DNA from: Armatimonadota bacterium
GTDB taxonomy: Bacteria; Armatimonadota; Hebobacteria; GCA-020354555; CP070648
Length of the DNA: 46,329 bases
NCBI GenBank assembly: GCA_020354555.1
Contig: CP070648.1
Coordinates: forward strand, 464,115 to 510,443
Direction: 5' to 3'
The translations under genes and the position numbers were made by a program. The notes beneath the pieces are model-generated. The model saw only the letters and a list, made by a program, of their open reading frames with translations. It had not been told where the DNA came from and did no database searches. Below are positions 16,852 through 24,576 of the stretch, in pieces (the first letter of the stretch is position 1; each line of letters opens with the position of its first letter).

Positions 16852-17068
16852 GCGCGGCACCGTTCTTGCGGCGCTGGATTCCTGGAAGGGGGTGGGGGTG
16901 CTCTGCGGCAGCATCAGGAAAGCCGCCGGAGCCGACGGAAAGGCGGGTAAAACGGGTTCGTCAGGGGAATACTCAAACCGGGAGATCGGAAGGGGGACGC
17001 AGCAGCGATTGCTGCCTTGCGGCGCCGAGTCGGCACGGGCTGCTGACGAAGCGAGAAAGGAGGCGGCG

Positions 17069-18193
17069 ATGAGGCGCAACACGGCCGTGCGCGGTACGGC
17101 ATGGCTCGCAGGCCTGGTGGCGCTCGTATTCCTACTGGGCGCGCTCCTGGCGTGCGACGCCGAGGCGGGGTTCTTCAGCAAGGTCAAGGGTCCGAAAGCG
17201 AGTTCCCAGAAGGAAAGCACGTCCCCGCCCTCGACAAGCAGCAGCCAGCCGAAAAGCGGCGGCTTCCTAAGTAAGGTCAAGAGCAAGGGGCCGACGCCGT
17301 ACATCCCGTCGAAGCCCGCTCCTTCACCACCGTCAAACACGCCGCTGCCGAGCGACAAGCCCGGCTTCTTCAGCCCGACCAAGGACAAACCGCAGCTCGG
17401 CGTCCCGCACCCGTCCACACCGGGCAATCCCCCGGGCGACTTCGTGTTCACGCGGCCCAGGGATGGTTGGAAGCAGGATCCGGGAGTGCTGCGGGACGTC
17501 ACGTCGACGCCGAGGCACGGCTGGAACAGCCGTGGGTACTTCGAGCAACTGCGCCGTGAGATCGAGGCGCGCCGCCACCGAGAGCGACACGTCCATTACT
17601 GGTACTATCCCTACGACTACACCTACTACCGCTGGTACCGCTACCACGTCGTGCCGCTTTACGTGTCGGTGGACAGCTACGGTTATGGCTACACGTACCT
17701 CTATCCGGACTACCGGTTCTACTATGCCGCGCCGACGACCATCATCATGGTGGAGCCCAACGATTGGGTGTACGGCGAGACGTACGTCCCGTACGCGACC
17801 TGGCCCTCCAATGACTTGATGGAGGCGAAGCGCGACATCGAGCGCGGGTGGCGACACGAACGCCTCGAGTTGATTGACCGCCACCTGGATCCCGACCACC
17901 AGATCGCCAGCTACCTGCGCGATGAGTACACGCACAGCCTGTCGGCGGAGGAGTTCCGGCAGCTCACACTTGATGCGTTTTCCAGCATTCGCACGGTGAG
18001 CTTCGAGCTGACCTCGGCGCGCTACGTCTCGACACGCTACTGGGCGCGGCTGAAGGGTAAGCACGTCTTCTACGATCCCTTCGACAAGCGCACCGTCGTC
18101 TACGTCAGCTACCTGATGCGCCGGGTCGACTACGATGCCGGGCATGAGCGCTGGATGATCTGGGAAGTCCGCCAGTCGCCGTCCCCGGACTGA
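17069..18193 (+). CDS. Exported Pro/Ser-rich and Tyr-rich protein of unknown function
   Basis: A 374-residue protein. ATG 17069 is chosen because it follows an excellent AAAGGAGG and opens a signal sequence (MRRNTAVRGTAW, then LVALVFLLGALLAC). The Cys could be lipidated (LLAC, an atypical lipobox) or cleavage could occur after AEA. Residues about 30-125 are low-complexity Pro/Ser/Lys with a repeated GFFSKVK/GFLSKVK motif. Residues about 175-230 are extremely Tyr-rich (HYWYYPYDYTYYRWYRYH, then YGYGYTYLYPDYRFYY). The C-terminal third looks globular. I recognise no family; a surface or envelope role is inferred from export and composition. A terminator follows at 18251. Confidence 0.75.
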   Translation: MRRNTAVRGTAWLAGLVALVFLLGALLACDAEAGFFSKVKGPKASSQKESTSPPSTSSSQPKSGGFLSKVKSKGPTPYIPSKPAPSPPSNTPLPSDKPGFFSPTKDKPQLGVPHPSTPGNPPGDFVFTRPRDGWKQDPGVLRDVTSTPRHGWNSRGYFEQLRREIEARRHRERHVHYWYYPYDYTYYRWYRYHVVPLYVSVDSYGYGYTYLYPDYRFYYAAPTTIIMVEPNDWVYGETYVPYATWPSNDLMEAKRDIERGWRHERLELIDRHLDPDHQIASYLRDEYTHSLSAEEFRQLTLDAFSSIRTVSFELTSARYVSTRYWARLKGKHVFYDPFDKRTVVYVSYLMRRVDYDAGHERWMIWEVRQSPSPD

Positions 18194-18250: not shown

Positions 18251-18286
18251 CGGCCCTGGTCGCGACAGAGCGGCCAGGGCCGTTTT
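18251..18286 (+). terminator. Intrinsic terminator
   Basis: CGGCCCTGG (18251-18259) pairs perfectly with CCAGGGCCG (18274-18282), followed by TTTT. It ends the transcript of the Tyr-rich protein gene and separates it from the mini transcription unit at 18354. Confidence 0.8.
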
Positions 18287-18353: not shown

Positions 18354-18382
18354 TTGACAAGTCCCGGTCTTGCCGCTACTAT
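18354..18382 (+). promoter_or_regulatory. Strong promoter of a miniature transcription unit
   Basis: Perfect -35 TTGACA (18354-18359), optimal 17-bp spacer, -10 TACTAT (18377-18382, 4 of 6). Transcription should start near 18389, only a few nt before the AAAGGAGGTG at 18394. Confidence 0.75.
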
Positions 18383-18411
18383 TGCGGGTAGCGAAAGGAG
18401 GTGGTGTGCAT

Positions 18412-18447
18412 ATGGTTAACTTAGCACGAGGTGAGGCTGGAGGCTAG
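18412..18447 (+). CDS. 11-codon micro-frame (MVNLARGEAGG)
   Basis: ATG 18412 lies 10 nt after the core GGAGG of an extended AAAGGAGGTG. GTG 18406 in frame would add two residues (VH). The frame ends at TAG 18445-18447. After the TAG the same frame stays open and reads YLLEDFLHVLRHD, which looks protein-like; whether that means anything is unknown. The small size forbids homology arguments. The support is the quality of the promoter, ribosome-binding site and terminator around it. It could be a leader peptide, a secreted or signalling peptide, or fortuitous within a small RNA. Confidence 0.4.
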   Translation: MVNLARGEAGG

Positions 18448-18488
18448 TACCTGCTCGAAGACTTCCTCCATGTCCTCAGACATGACAG

Positions 18489-18526
18489 GGACGGAGCCGC
18501 AGCAGGTCGGCTCCGTCCTGCTTTTT
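18489..18526 (+). terminator. Strong intrinsic terminator
   Basis: GGACGGAGCCG (18489-18499) pairs over 11 perfect base pairs with CGGCTCCGTCC (18508-18518) around CAGCAGGT, followed by TGCTTTTT. It closes the mini transcription unit 445 bp before the diguanylate cyclase start. Confidence 0.9.
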
Positions 18527-18971
18527 GCCCCGGCCGAGTAGCGCGCCGCCCCCACGTTCGGCCGCGGCGTCCTCGCCCCGAACCCCGCGTGCACGCTGCC
18601 GCATAGACCGAATCACCTCTCCATCGAGCCCGGGCTTGTGCACGCGCGGCACCGTAGGCCCCTCCGGAGCCCCCAATGCGTCGAGGCCGTCGCACCTCCC
18701 CCGGGATCGGGCCCGTGAGCGTGATTCCTTGGTCTGCCGCCCTTCCCGTGACAGACGGACCCCGTTAATGTGGAATAACGCCCACAAAGTCTTGCTGTCA
18801 GGGGCGGACTGCCCCACCGGGCACGAACCCGCGGAAGTCGGTCCGGAAAAGGTCCCGGACCGTCTGCCGACTTGACGCCCGGCGTCGCGCAATACTGGAA
18901 GACTTTCATCAATCACATCACATCACACCGTGCGTCTGACGTGCGGCACAAAACAACAGAGGTCGCATGAC
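18527..18971 (+). other. Noncoding stretch with a structured segment
   Basis: No convincing gene. At 18835-18873 there is an imperfect hairpin: AAGTCGG with CCGACTT outside, GGTCCGG (18840-18846) with CCGGACC (18855-18861) inside. A TTGACG (18872-18877) could be a -35 for the cyclase gene but no good -10 follows at the right distance. No c-di-GMP riboswitch motif was found despite the cyclase downstream. Confidence 0.4.
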
Positions 18972-20555
18972 ATGCCCCCCGAACAGCCGTTAGGGACACA
19001 CGCCTCAACGGAACCGCCCCTCGACGCCTCCGGCGACGCGAGCGCGTCGTTCACGGCCATGACGGCACAGATAGCGTCGGTGGTTCGCCTCGTCGTTTTG
19101 CTGACCGTTGTGCTCATGCTCCGGCTGCGTCAACTGCCGCTGGTGTTCGATTCGCTTGACATCTTGCTCGCACTAGGCGCGTGCTACGTCGTCGTCACCA
19201 CGCTGTTCCCGCGGCGCTGGAGAAGCTCGCAGCTCACTCGTCTCCTTCTCATCTGCGACATCGTGCTGATCTCGGGCCTGATCTGGATCACGGGCGGCAC
19301 GCGCAGCGAGTATTACCTGCTGTATTACCTGCCGATTCTGCACGGGGCGAGCCGCCTCAACTTCCGCGACGCGATAACCGCGTCGGTGTTGGCGGCGATC
19401 TGCTATCTCTTCATCGCCATTGCCGCGGGGCCGCTCGTGCCCATTATGACGACCGGCATACTGAGAGCGGGCGCCTTTGGCGGCTCGGTCATCATCCTCG
19501 CCGTATTCTTTGCCGTTCTCTCCCACGAGGCGCGCACCAATCGACTGCTTACGGAGAAACTGCGCGAGGCGTTCGACAGCGTGTCGGCAGTGTATGACAT
19601 CGCCCGGGTGGCGAGCACCCGCGACAGCGTGCAAGACGTGATGGGCACGACGCTGCGGCAAGCGATGCGGCTCTCGGAGGCCGACGGCGGCGTCCTCGCC
19701 GTGCTCGACAGCGAGGGGCGGTTTCACGTGGCGGCGCAACACGGCGCCGACGACGCACCCGAAGTGGCATTCGACCAAGCGCTTGCTGGGACAGCGATCG
19801 AGGGCCGCCGGTGGTTGTCGCGCGAAGTCGCGGACCCGCGACCCGACAAGCAGCCCGCCCACGAGTTCTTCATCCCCATGTTTGCCGGCTGGCATCCGCT
19901 GGCGGTAATGCAGATTCGCACGACTCGCCCCGCCGGCTTGCAGGAGCGGGATATGGAACTCGTACGTGCGTTGTGCGCCGAGGCCGCGATGGCCATCGAG
20001 AATGCTCGCCTCCGCGCCGAAACGAAGCGCGCGGCGGCCACCGATTACCTGACCGGCCTATGCAATCGCCGAGAGTTCGCACTCCGTCTGGAGGCGGAGA
20101 TTCGGCGCACCGCGCGGCACGGCGGCGAAGTCGCCTTGGTGCTGCTCGACGCCGACGACTTCAAGCGCTGCAACGATTCGCACGGGCATCAAGCCGGCGA
20201 CCAGGTGCTGCAGGCGCTGGCGGAGCGCATCGAGGCCGTCATCCGCGGCGAGGATACCGCCGCACGTTACGGCGGCGACGAATTCGCAATTATCCTGCCG
20301 CAGACCGACATCGCCGGCGCCCGCGTCGTGGCGCAGAAACTTCAGCGAGAACTTCAAACGCTGACGTTCGATTGGAGCGCCGACACGTGGCAGCTCACGG
20401 TCAGTACCGGTGTCAGCGCGTCAGGCGAAGAGCTCTCCGCTAACTTGTTGCTGCAGAAGGCCGACCGAGCACTGTACGAGGCCAAGAGCGCAGGCAAGAA
20501 CCAGATCTGTGTGTGGCAGGCCAACGCACAAGCTGAATCGGCGGCAACCCCGTGA
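18972..20555 (+). CDS. Membrane GAF-GGDEF diguanylate cyclase
   Basis: A 527-residue protein that should make c-di-GMP from two GTP. The N-terminal 190 residues hold about five transmembrane helices with the shared signature GGTRSEYYLLYYLPILHGASRL; a GAF-like domain follows (about 200-360), then GGDEF. The active site is canonical: DYLTGLCNRREF, DADDFKRCNDSHGH and GGDEF at 434-438. The product-inhibition I-site RxxD is RGED at 425-428, five residues before the GGDEF as required. ATG 18972 is preferred (AGAGG nine nt upstream); the frame is open back to GTG 18930. A paralogue follows 55 bp downstream. Confidence 0.92.
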   Translation: MPPEQPLGTHASTEPPLDASGDASASFTAMTAQIASVVRLVVLLTVVLMLRLRQLPLVFDSLDILLALGACYVVVTTLFPRRWRSSQLTRLLLICDIVLISGLIWITGGTRSEYYLLYYLPILHGASRLNFRDAITASVLAAICYLFIAIAAGPLVPIMTTGILRAGAFGGSVIILAVFFAVLSHEARTNRLLTEKLREAFDSVSAVYDIARVASTRDSVQDVMGTTLRQAMRLSEADGGVLAVLDSEGRFHVAAQHGADDAPEVAFDQALAGTAIEGRRWLSREVADPRPDKQPAHEFFIPMFAGWHPLAVMQIRTTRPAGLQERDMELVRALCAEAAMAIENARLRAETKRAAATDYLTGLCNRREFALRLEAEIRRTARHGGEVALVLLDADDFKRCNDSHGHQAGDQVLQALAERIEAVIRGEDTAARYGGDEFAIILPQTDIAGARVVAQKLQRELQTLTFDWSADTWQLTVSTGVSASGEELSANLLLQKADRALYEAKSAGKNQICVWQANAQAESAATP

Positions 20556-20610
20556 CGGCCGTTGTCGCCAGGCGCTGCAACACGTTGCCACCGCAGAAGG
20601 CACACGCCAG

Positions 20611-22218
20611 GTGAAAGACGGCAACCGCCAAACACTCAATAACGCAGCAGTCGCCATCCGCGCGGTGGTCCTACTCACCGCCACGATCATGACGCGCGTG
20701 CGGATGCACGCCGCTCCGGCGACCTTGGGATTGGACATCCTTCTCGTTTGCGGGGGACTGTATGTGCTGCTGACATCTGTCCTCGATCGCCTCGGGCCGC
20801 GCTACCGGCCCGACGTCAGTGCGCTCGTCGGCTTGGACGTATTCTACATCACCGCCCTGGTGTGGCAGACCGGTGGCCTCGCCAGCGAGTTCTATCTGCT
20901 CTATTACCTGCCCATTCTACACGCCAGTGTGCGCCTCGACTTCCGCCACGCGGTGCTGTCTTCCATGCTAGCCGCGCTGTGCTACGGGTTGATAACGGTC
21001 GCGGGAGGGCCGGACGTCCCGGTGCAAAGCACCCCGGCGCTTCAGTTGGCCACGTTTGGCGGATCCGCGCTAATCCTGGCGCTTTTCTTCGCGACCGCCG
21101 CGGCTCTGTCCAGAAGCCAGCGCGAAACAACCGACCGCTTGGAGCGAACGGTCGAGCGGCTGTCGGCGCTGTACCGCATCGCGCGCGCGGTTCACGCCAA
21201 GGACAGCTTGCAGAGCGTCGTCGATACGAGCCTTGAACTCGGGTTGGAGCTCACGGGGGCGCGCTTCGGGTATGTGGCACTGGGCAACGGCGCCGGCGAA
21301 CTGCTGGTCAAAGCCAGCCGCGCCGCAAGCAGCCAGGGGGATATCGGCGAGCACCCGCCGTTCGATCGCCGTCTCGCGGAGCAGTGTCTGGTGCGGCGGG
21401 CGCCGGCGGTGACCGACGTTCGGGGCGATCATCCCGAAGTGGCCGGCGCGCTGCGCGCGGGATGCTGCGTGATCTCCGTTCCGTTGGTACACAACGACAA
21501 CGCCTATGGGGCGGTGCAGCTCTACGATGCTCCCGGCGAGACGTGCGGTGAGCGGGAACTCGAGACGCTGGTCGCGCTATGCGGGGAGGCGTCGCGCGCG
21601 ATCGAGAACGCCCGTCTGCTGGCCGAGGTTCACCGCTTGGCGGTGACAGACGAACTCACCGGGCTCTACCACCGCAGCGAGTTCCGACGTTTGCTCGCCG
21701 CGGAAGTTGACAACGCGCGGGCCAACGGGGGCGTCATCACGGTGCTTCTGTTCGATATTGACGGGATGCAGCAGATTGGGGCTGAGCACGGACCCGAGGC
21801 GGCGGACGAGGTACTGCTCGCCTTCGCAGACATGTTACGCCGGTACATCAGATCGCAGGACATCGCCGCGCGCTACGGCGCCGACGAGTTCGCAGTGCTG
21901 CTGCCGCAGGGAGGCATTGACGGTGCGCGAGCCGTTGCGGCGCGGCTGTGCCATGCCATGGCGCGCCATCCGTTCCACCTCCACAGCGAGGACGAGGTCC
22001 GTCATTTCAGCGTTTGCGCCGGCGCGGTCGTTGCCAAGGAGATGCCCGACGACCCGGATCATCTGATCGGGCGCGCCGACGAAGCGCTGTTCGAGGCAAG
22101 GCAGGCGGGGCCGGGCCAGATCCGTTTCTGGGAGGCCACCGTCAAGCGCGGCGTCGTGACGCAGATGCGTCAGATCGTGGAGCACGTGCAGCACTCCTCA
22201 GACGAGCAGTGGCGCTGA
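20611..22218 (+). CDS. Degenerate membrane GAF-GGDEF protein
   Basis: A 535-residue paralogue of the preceding cyclase with the same architecture: membrane segments containing GGLASEFYLLYYLPILHASVRL, a GAF domain (about 180-340) and a GGDEF domain. Its active site is altered at several places: GADEF (423-427) instead of GGDEF, TGLYHR instead of TGLxNR, and DIDGMQQIGAEHGP where the partner has DADDFKRCNDSHGH, so the Lys, Asn and Asp expected there are lost. The I-site RxxD is kept (RSQD, 414-417). It is probably catalytically weak or dead and may bind c-di-GMP or regulate its partner. The GTG start at 20611 has AGAAGG upstream; the frame is open further 5'. Confidence 0.85.
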   Translation: MKDGNRQTLNNAAVAIRAVVLLTATIMTRVRMHAAPATLGLDILLVCGGLYVLLTSVLDRLGPRYRPDVSALVGLDVFYITALVWQTGGLASEFYLLYYLPILHASVRLDFRHAVLSSMLAALCYGLITVAGGPDVPVQSTPALQLATFGGSALILALFFATAAALSRSQRETTDRLERTVERLSALYRIARAVHAKDSLQSVVDTSLELGLELTGARFGYVALGNGAGELLVKASRAASSQGDIGEHPPFDRRLAEQCLVRRAPAVTDVRGDHPEVAGALRAGCCVISVPLVHNDNAYGAVQLYDAPGETCGERELETLVALCGEASRAIENARLLAEVHRLAVTDELTGLYHRSEFRRLLAAEVDNARANGGVITVLLFDIDGMQQIGAEHGPEAADEVLLAFADMLRRYIRSQDIAARYGADEFAVLLPQGGIDGARAVAARLCHAMARHPFHLHSEDEVRHFSVCAGAVVAKEMPDDPDHLIGRADEALFEARQAGPGQIRFWEATVKRGVVTQMRQIVEHVQHSSDEQWR

Positions 22219-22266: not shown

Positions 22267-24576
22267 TCAAGCCCCCGCCTCAGGCGGCTCCCCGGTCTTC
22301 TCCTCAAGCGCCGTCTCCGCGCCCAGGCCGCTCCGCTTGCTGAACACCACCGCGGTGCCGAGCGCGGCGATCGCCGCGAGCACCACCACAACGCGCAGCG
22401 CCGGGCTCATCTCTCCCAACTGCGTTGCCGCCACAAACGGCGCCAACAGAAGCGCCACCAAGTTCATTACCTTAATCAGCGGGTTGAGCGCGGGCCCCGC
22501 AGTGTCCTTGAGGGGATCGCCGACCGTATCGCCGATGACTGCTGCCTTGTGAAACTCGGTGCCCTTGCCGCCGTAGAGCCCGTCCTCGATCTTTTTCTTC
22601 GCGTTATCCCATGCGCCGCCGGTATTCGCCATAAACACGGCCATAAGCTGTCCGGTGAGGATCGCCCCCGCGAGGTAGCCGCCGAGCGCTGCGGCGCCGA
22701 GCCCGAAAGCGACCAGGACCGGCGTGGCGATGGCGAGCAGGCCCGGGCCGATAAGCTCCTTCTGCGCCGCGCGAGTGCTGATCTCGACACACCGAGAGTA
22801 CTCGGGGCGCCCGGTGCCTTCCATGATGCCCGGGATCTCGCGGAACTGGCGCCGCACTTCATCCACGAGCAAGCCCGCCGCGCGGCCGACTGCGCGGATG
22901 GCGAAACTGGAGAACAGGAACGGCACCGCGCCGCCGATGAGCAGCCCGATGAACACGGGCGGGAAGTTAACGCGTATTCCCGTTTCCACCAGTTCGCTCT
23001 CCGCCGCGAAGGACGCGAACAGAGAGGTCGCCGCGACCACCGCAGTGGCAATGGCGAAGCCCTTGGTCAGGGCTTTGGTCGTGTTGCCTACGGCGTCCAG
23101 GCGGGCGACGATGCGATGGGCTGCCTCCTGTTTCTTGTCCCCTTCCTTCAACGCACCCGACATCTCGAAAATGCCGTTGGCGTTGTCCGATATCGGCCCG
23201 TATGTATCCATTGCTAGAATGTAGCCGGTCGTCGTCAGCAGCCCGAGGCCGGCCAACGCAATGCCGTAGAACGCCAGCGCGAGGTTGCCGCTGAAGATCA
23301 CGAACGAAACGAGCATGGTGAAACAGATCGCCAGGATCGCCCACACGCTGCTCTCCATGCCTTCCGCGAGCCCGGCCAGCAGCATGGTGGCCGCGCCGGT
23401 GCGCGTCGAGCGCGCGATCTCGGTTACCGGCGCCTTGTCGGTGTGCGTGAAATGCTCGGTGAGTCGGCCGATGATCAGCGCGAGCACGATGCCCATTGCC
23501 GTCGCCACGAAGAAGCGCCAGTCCGGCAGGTAGAGCACCGTCACCACCCCGAATCCGGCCGCGGCGAGCAGCGCCGAGACCCAGAAGCCGACATTGATCG
23601 GCTGCATCGGGTTCATGTCCTCGTCATCGCGGCCGCGCACGCTCCAGGTGCCGACGATGGAGGCGAACACGCCCACCGCCCGCACGAGCAACGGATAGAT
23701 GATGAGCTTGAGGCCGAACCCGAGGTCGGCCCCGACGAAGATGGCCGCCGCGCCGAGAATGATGGCCGCCACCAGCGTCACTTCGTAGCTCTCGAAGACG
23801 TCGGCGGCCATGCCGGCGCAGTCCCCGACGTTGTCGCCGACGTTGTCGGCGATGACGGCGGCGTTGCGGGGGTCATCCTCGGGGATGCCCTTCTCGACCT
23901 TGCCCACGAGGTCGGCTCCGACGTCCGCCGCCTTGGTGTAGATTCCGCCGCCGACCCTCATGAAGAGCGCCGCCAGGCACCCGCCGAAGCCGAAGCCCAC
24001 GAGCACGCGCATCGCATCCTCGCGGAACACGAGAAAGATGACCGTGGCGCCGAGCAGGCCCAGGCCGACCGTGAACATCCCCGACACCGTCCCCGCCTGG
24101 AACGCCAACTCGAGCGCGCGCTTAAAGCTGCCGAGCGCCGCATTCGCCACGCGCACATTCGCGCGCACCGCCACGCCCATCCCGACGTAACCCGCGCCAT
24201 ATGACGCGAACACGCCCATGAGGAACGCCAGCGCGATCCCGAGCGCGATCATCGGATCCTCGGCGTACTTCCCCTGGTACATGAAGTAAAGGCCGATCGT
24301 GATGACGAGCACGAGGACGATCATCGTCCGGAACTGCCGACCCAGGTAGGCCATCGCCCCGTCGTGAATCGCGGAGGCGACGTTCTGCATGGCCTCGCTG
24401 CCGGCGGGCGCTCGCGCAACCTTGCGCGTCAGGTACCACCCATAGAGCAGCGCGATGACCGCTGTAATCAGCACCGCCCACAGCATACCCCACTCCAGCG
24501 GCGGCAGCGTGGGCAGCGTAAGCTCGCCCTCGCTCATCGGGATGCGTGCGTGTTGTATCTCGCCTCCCACAGGCAT
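22267..24576 (-). CDS. hppA: K+-independent H+-translocating membrane pyrophosphatase
   Basis: A 769-residue integral membrane protein with about 16 helices that hydrolyses pyrophosphate and pumps protons. The substrate loop DVGADLVGKVEKGIPEDDPRN is at about 218-238, followed by ADNVGDNVGDCAGMAADVFE. In GNTTKALTKG (497-506) the Lys501 and Thr504 replace the Ala and Gly of K+-dependent enzymes, which marks the K+-independent, H+-pumping class. The ATG at 24576 follows AAGGAGGA. A leader hairpin lies just upstream at 24594-24626. It is the last gene of the minus-strand cluster with two phosphofructokinases and two RCK proteins, and ends against the convergent GGDEF gene. Confidence 0.96.
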   Translation of the reverse strand: MPVGGEIQHARIPMSEGELTLPTLPPLEWGMLWAVLITAVIALLYGWYLTRKVARAPAGSEAMQNVASAIHDGAMAYLGRQFRTMIVLVLVITIGLYFMYQGKYAEDPMIALGIALAFLMGVFASYGAGYVGMGVAVRANVRVANAALGSFKRALELAFQAGTVSGMFTVGLGLLGATVIFLVFREDAMRVLVGFGFGGCLAALFMRVGGGIYTKAADVGADLVGKVEKGIPEDDPRNAAVIADNVGDNVGDCAGMAADVFESYEVTLVAAIILGAAAIFVGADLGFGLKLIIYPLLVRAVGVFASIVGTWSVRGRDDEDMNPMQPINVGFWVSALLAAAGFGVVTVLYLPDWRFFVATAMGIVLALIIGRLTEHFTHTDKAPVTEIARSTRTGAATMLLAGLAEGMESSVWAILAICFTMLVSFVIFSGNLALAFYGIALAGLGLLTTTGYILAMDTYGPISDNANGIFEMSGALKEGDKKQEAAHRIVARLDAVGNTTKALTKGFAIATAVVAATSLFASFAAESELVETGIRVNFPPVFIGLLIGGAVPFLFSSFAIRAVGRAAGLLVDEVRRQFREIPGIMEGTGRPEYSRCVEISTRAAQKELIGPGLLAIATPVLVAFGLGAAALGGYLAGAILTGQLMAVFMANTGGAWDNAKKKIEDGLYGGKGTEFHKAAVIGDTVGDPLKDTAGPALNPLIKVMNLVALLLAPFVAATQLGEMSPALRVVVVLAAIAALGTAVVFSKRSGLGAETALEEKTGEPPEAGA

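Follow-up and report, generated by a model that had tools for sequence, protein, structure and literature searches.

A putative stand-alone small RNA gene of Armatimonadota with an extended ribosome-binding site and a very short reading frame

The window (the whole stretch of DNA analysed, 46,329 nt from an Armatimonadota bacterium, GenBank CP070648.1, positions 464,115 to 510,443) includes a unit of 173 bases at 18354-18526. A direct read found its promoter, Shine-Dalgarno sequence (SD1), 11-codon frame and terminator at the positions given in a first-pass annotation made from the letters alone. The upstream gene (16892-18193) has no Pfam match. Downstream lie two adjacent GAF-GGDEF proteins in tandem (18930-22218) and a large membrane protein conserved among homologues (22267-24576), which, naming it from its sequence, we take to be a proton pyrophosphatase. 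G+C-rich inverted repeats that have no Rfam match are present at 18790-18880, between the RNA and the first GGDEF gene. No tRNA or tmRNA was found within the window, and the phage search returned no match. The features of the unit and its upstream boundary are as follows.

18251-18282, + strand: intrinsic terminator of the upstream gene, which insulates the unit (terminator scan)
18354-18382, + strand: promoter TTGACA-17-TACTAT, with the -35 TTGACA at 18354-18359, a 17-nt spacer and the -10 TACTAT at 18377-18382
18393-18403, + strand: SD1, GAAAGGAGGTG (complementarity to the 16S 3' end)
18412-18447, + strand: mini reading frame MVNLARGEAGG, 11 codons, with the ATG at 18412 and a TAG stop at 18445-18447
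18428-18434, + strand: SD2, GAGGTGA, an SD-like core within the frame (sequence read)
18433-18477, + strand: stop-codon hairpin, the 5' arm being the end of the frame and the 3' arm including CTTCCTCC (fold compared with shuffles, family covariation)
18488-18526, + strand: intrinsic terminator with T-run (scan, fold and sister-genus comparison)

The promoter scores 10/12 and is the sole sigma-70-like site of this kind within 1.3 kb, where 0.3 would be expected; the transcription start is predicted to be near 18389-18390. Most of what the first-pass annotation had described was confirmed, namely the consensus -35 with 17-bp spacing, the ribosome site with its 11-codon ATG frame, the isolation by another terminator and the terminator with a T-run, though the stem of the last (18488-18519) has 12 pairs by the scan rather than 11. 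This stem has a fold z of -4.5 and is preserved in the sister genus with a G-C to A-U compensatory change (window compared with L002). All 11 nt of SD1 are perfectly complementary to the 16S 3' end of the same genome, GGATCACCTCCTTTCT. SD2, which was absent from the earlier description, lies 10 nt 5' of the P-site codon when the stop occupies the A site.

The nucleotide search of relatives that the annotation had proposed did return homologues: BLAST with the unit gave a 78 % match in the sister genus, and more distant relatives matched only in the core (AAGGAGGTGGTG..ATG..GAGGTGR). A search pattern for this SD1-ATG-SD2 core, which excludes the stop codon, was found in 31 of 291 Armatimonadota genomes with exactly one copy per genome, and the reversed control pattern had no matches in the 291. 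The frame is 10-12 codons long in all 31 copies found in this way. R1, a model of the core built on sequence alone and spanning the stop region, matched 130 of the 291 genomes at E<=0.1, and the 40 further copies read after this search bring the number inspected to 71, from 17 of 45 families; since R1 covers the stop region, these 40 were partly selected for it. Weaker R1 matches were left uncounted because the model also matches ordinary SD-plus-start sites in Chloroflexota (21/251 at E<=0.001, mostly with the SD and start matched only). No convincing copy came from the largest Armatimonadota families at the R1 sensitivity used, which may reflect true absence or divergence. Candidates L034/L188 and L026/L189 were rejected as chance SDs or ordinary genes, and many loci from the genome contig scan (e.g. 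L021-L023, L025-L027) were dropped as ordinary coding sequence.

The extended SD is present in all 71 inspected copies and SD1 is the most conserved part of the unit, with AAGGAGGTGGTG kept in every row of a 25-row core alignment (the string is itself part of the search pattern). A promoter scoring at least 9/12 lies within 65 nt of SD1 in 56 of 70 family copies compared to 5 % of control positions, a placement that puts the predicted start of transcription a few nt 5' of SD1. Codon 11-14 is the first in-frame stop in 71/71 copies, giving a frame of 10-13 codons. SD2 (GAGGTGR or similar) is found within the frame in nearly all of the 71, and in 70/71 it is 7-10 nt away from the P site of a ribosome whose A site holds the stop. 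The SD2-to-stop distance is correspondingly narrow (15-18 nt in 70/71), whereas the distance from ATG to SD2 varies, mostly between 12 and 21 nt. A shift of SD2 by 1-2 nt against the frame sets three small groups apart (L176/L182/L183/L185/L186; L179/L180; L184), whose frames still have 11-12 codons. TAG is the stop in 48/71 copies vs 34/90 neighbouring genes, and this excess may reflect the hairpin or release factor 1.

From these comparisons of sequence, we conclude that the window unit is one copy of a family of stand-alone small RNA genes of Armatimonadota, with predicted transcripts of about 140-200 nt each. Though an SD or a terminator is individually common, a chance arrangement of such elements is refuted by the conservation (71 copies, none for the control pattern) and deserves practically no credence. 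The earlier remarks that the unit is too well formed for chance and may be a regulatory RNA both gain support from its conservation across 17 families.

Two secondary structures had been proposed for the window, a hairpin around the start codon and a switch in which a CCTCC segment would pair with either the SD or the end of the frame. Shuffled sequences fold as well as the start-codon hairpin, both in the window (z +0.6) and across the family (mean z -0.17). Only one arm of the switch stood: CCTCC at 18465-18469 pairs with the frame-end GGAGG, and this is the window copy of a conserved stop-codon hairpin, but its pairing with SD1, while possible, does not exceed chance in the window (p 0.42) and is not conserved in most of the family. 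An SD1/anti-SD switch exceeds chance in clade C, with its CACCUCCUU, and otherwise in a few scattered copies only.

The stop-region fold is better than dinucleotide shuffles in 64/64 distinct copies (z<0; mean z -1.60, kinship between copies being ignored), and for the window hairpin z is -2.12 on 46 nt and -0.70, i.e. moderate stability, on the 49-nt frame used family-wide. The covariation analysis that had been suggested was also positive, as the 9-nt arms of the hairpin covary, with only 2 of 5000 between-copy re-pairings reaching the observed pairing (kinship again ignored), and in other clades the arms carry C-G to U-A and G-C to A-U replacements. Many families have in addition a module after the stop, GUU-UUAGCC ... 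GGUCAUG-AAC, with covariation in its P1 helix: the observed value of 5.36/7 pairs, lowered by assignments that are certainly wrong in L164, L169 and L170, exceeds both the mean (4.68) and the maximum (5.27) of 2000 re-pairings, with kinship not taken into account. The repeated module UUUUAGCC ... GGUCAUGAAC was seen after the stop codon in Armatimonadota copies, e.g. L150-L186, and is duplicated in clade A. The two-genome clade that includes the window (f1) does not have the post-stop module; hence, the 3' part in the window is a reduced or different version.

The annotation had also suggested a micropeptide gene, for which a peptide of 10-13 residues would be the product. The frame is indeed kept in every copy and M-x-x-S-Q-R-G-D/E/G is common among the family peptides. 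However, the common residues S-Q-R-G-D and the final G coincide with nucleotide motifs, namely AGTCAACGAGGTGA and the GGC of the hairpin, and the other codons change residue freely. Among near pairs of copies 33 % of the changes are synonymous when 24 % would be expected, from which the residues appear to be weakly constrained, and here too the overlap of common residues with nucleotide motifs applies. The peptides of clade C (MLHRPGGGVS) and clade E (MSNHTHGGGER) are largely unrelated, and the phase in which SD2 is read differs in clade f26 and in Actinomycetota. Hence, the length of the frame is kept but its residues are not closely held, and a peptide product, weakly supported at best, is quite improbable. 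Judged from its sequence, the unit looks less like a peptide gene or an accident than like a small RNA made for ribosomes to read.

A further possibility is that the frame encodes a leader peptide which, with a transcription attenuator, controls the downstream diguanylate cyclase genes. The RNA does precede the same two GGDEF genes and the proton pyrophosphatase in the window and in the sister genome G001, but this order is kept only inside family f1 and in no other family, and about 400 nt of unconserved sequence separates the terminator from the first GGDEF gene. Among the 65 copies with a downstream gene, that gene is on the same strand in 31 and on the opposite strand in 34. No neighbouring gene is common to different clades in this set; shared downstream clusters reach 7 members at most, and each of these largest clusters comes from a single group of relatives. 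As the neighbouring genes differ between clades, the unit is best regarded as a stand-alone RNA gene and control of the adjacent genes as very unlikely. The earlier idea of a leader whose target is gone is likewise not supported, because the genes beside the copies of other families are unrelated and lie on either strand. A c-di-GMP-I riboswitch and a second, weaker one were observed near a clade B copy (L108:2512-2909).

The reading that we favour, tentatively and at a little short of an even chance, is that the unit is a translated riboregulator that senses ribosomes or translation. Transcription would begin just upstream of the extended SD, making a high-affinity ribosome-binding site nearly the first element that the RNA offers, and the placement and size of SD1 would serve ribosome capture. 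A captured ribosome would initiate, read 10-13 codons and meet a stop inside a hairpin that it must open. SD-like sites slow or hold ribosomes, and SD2, which is 7-10 nt 5' of the P site once the stop has entered the A site, would be within the hold of the 16S anti-SD. The ribosome that terminates there, or its 30S subunit, would therefore stay longer and prevent the hairpin from closing. Occupancy by the ribosome would in this way be converted to a change of fold in the 3' part, which, once freed or refolded, may act in trans; alternatively, the bound ribosome may itself be the output. For the window copy, transcription and translation, the lingering of the ribosome and any downstream output are all inferred.

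Another possibility is an SD decoy: free 30S subunits would be titrated by the extended SD, and the frame would serve only to clear and recycle them. It would account for SD1 being both the most conserved part and, in the window, complementary to 16S over 11 nt, but it leaves the frame length, the SD2-stop spacing and the stop hairpin unexplained, and a single gene would have to out-compete many mRNAs. We consider it improbable. An ordinary dual-function or base-pairing small RNA, whose 3' part pairs with mRNA targets and whose mini-frame merely protects or tunes the RNA, is somewhat more plausible, though still unlikely. The unit stands alone with its own promoter and terminator, one per genome, and known dual-function RNAs share this general plan, e.g. 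rnTrpL (PMC10117765). However, a comparison of sister genera in the window clade shows little conservation of the 3' part and near identity of SD1, frame and SD2, the opposite of what would be expected for a small RNA driven by a seed. The rnTrpL RNA of Sinorhizobium, a trp attenuator with the peptide peTrpL, also resembles the Armatimonadota RNA in having a tiny frame on a terminated small RNA, but it is leaderless, lies upstream of trpE and has regulatory codons, none of which applies to the Armatimonadota RNA (PMC10117765).

The claim of the first-pass annotation that the unit matches no known class holds at Rfam thresholds: with both gathering and permissive thresholds there was no significant match for the window or for the Armatimonadota copies scanned. 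It does not hold for architecture, which is shared with Ms_IGR-5 (RF02471) and CC2171 (RF01867), the two families to which weak full-length alignments of other copies pointed (E 0.23-0.24). Against the cut-off of 45 bits, Ms_IGR-5 had no match in the window and a best score of 19.8 bits (L090) among the Armatimonadota copies scanned; for CC2171, with a cut-off of 75 bits, the window scored 12.3 bits (E 0.89) and L095 21.1 bits.

Ms_IGR-5 was detected in 48 of the 246 Actinomycetota sampled. Its transcription has been confirmed in Streptomyces (PMC8079986, PMC8780764), and ribosome-protected reads have been reported to cover its homologues in M. abscessus and M. smegmatis (PMC4974804). It too has the layout of a 5' extended SD, a short frame, SD2 near the stop and the stop in a hairpin, this layout being our description and not the Rfam definition. 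The common layout and the ribosome-protected reads both speak for the preferred reading of a ribosome-sensing RNA. Like the Armatimonadota RNA, it is a stand-alone RNA with an SD, GGAGGTGGT, near the 5' end; a frame of 12-14 codons was found in 25 of 32 distinct copies (the other 7 being without a canonical start in the stretch examined), GAGGTGR lies exactly 8 nt from the termination P site in 32/32, and the stop is in a stable local fold (28/32 with z<0). Four of the best-scoring copies (L191-L194) have a TTG start and 12 codons. In contrast, the sequence after SD1 differs from that of the Armatimonadota RNA, as does the phase of SD2, which is read as GAG GTG in Ms_IGR-5 and as CGA GGT in the Armatimonadota RNA. 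Because R1 finds Ms_IGR-5 without significance (best E 0.04), common descent of the two is not established.

CC2171, an alphaproteobacterial small RNA detected in 55 of 299 genomes sampled from its phylum, similarly begins with GAAAGGAGGTGATCC followed directly by GTG or ATG and a short frame, and its stop is in a stable fold in 23/32 copies (z<0). It differs in having a frame of 14-27 codons and in that SD2 is not general. In all of the CC2171 copies read (L114-L116, L221-L249) the short frame comes directly after the SD, and in several the stop is in a very stable hairpin. Two formerly predicted ncRNAs of Caulobacter have been shown to be translated, neither of them named as CC2171 in the available portion of that paper (PMC4117421).

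Units of related appearance were also seen in Chloroflexota. In L251:1501-1640 a stand-alone AAAGGAGGTGGTG unit has a 19-codon frame, MDDSHSYSSGIRCTEVTAN, the start of which resembles the Armatimonadota copies and the end of which (GAG GTG ACT GCG AAC TGA) resembles Ms_IGR-5. On sequence resemblance it is a possible bridge between the two. Six others (L250, L255, L256, L259, L260 and L254) have TTGACA-type promoters and AAAGGAGGTGGTGTG, then a short frame. Those of the six that were scanned gave no match to Rfam.

We suggest, as a possibility towards which we are more doubtful than inclined, that the RNAs of Armatimonadota, Actinomycetota (Ms_IGR-5), Alphaproteobacteria (CC2171) and some Chloroflexota make up one unrecognized class of stand-alone RNA, with a 5' extended SD, a very short frame, the stop in a hairpin and often an SD-like hold site, which would report the availability of ribosomes or termination to the cell. 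The family described here occurs in at least 71 species of a little-studied phylum, is without an entry in Rfam 15, and is linked by its layout to two catalogued small RNAs to which no function has been assigned. It would follow that Ms_IGR-5 and CC2171 are translated, and that translation of the tiny frame is itself the regulatory event.
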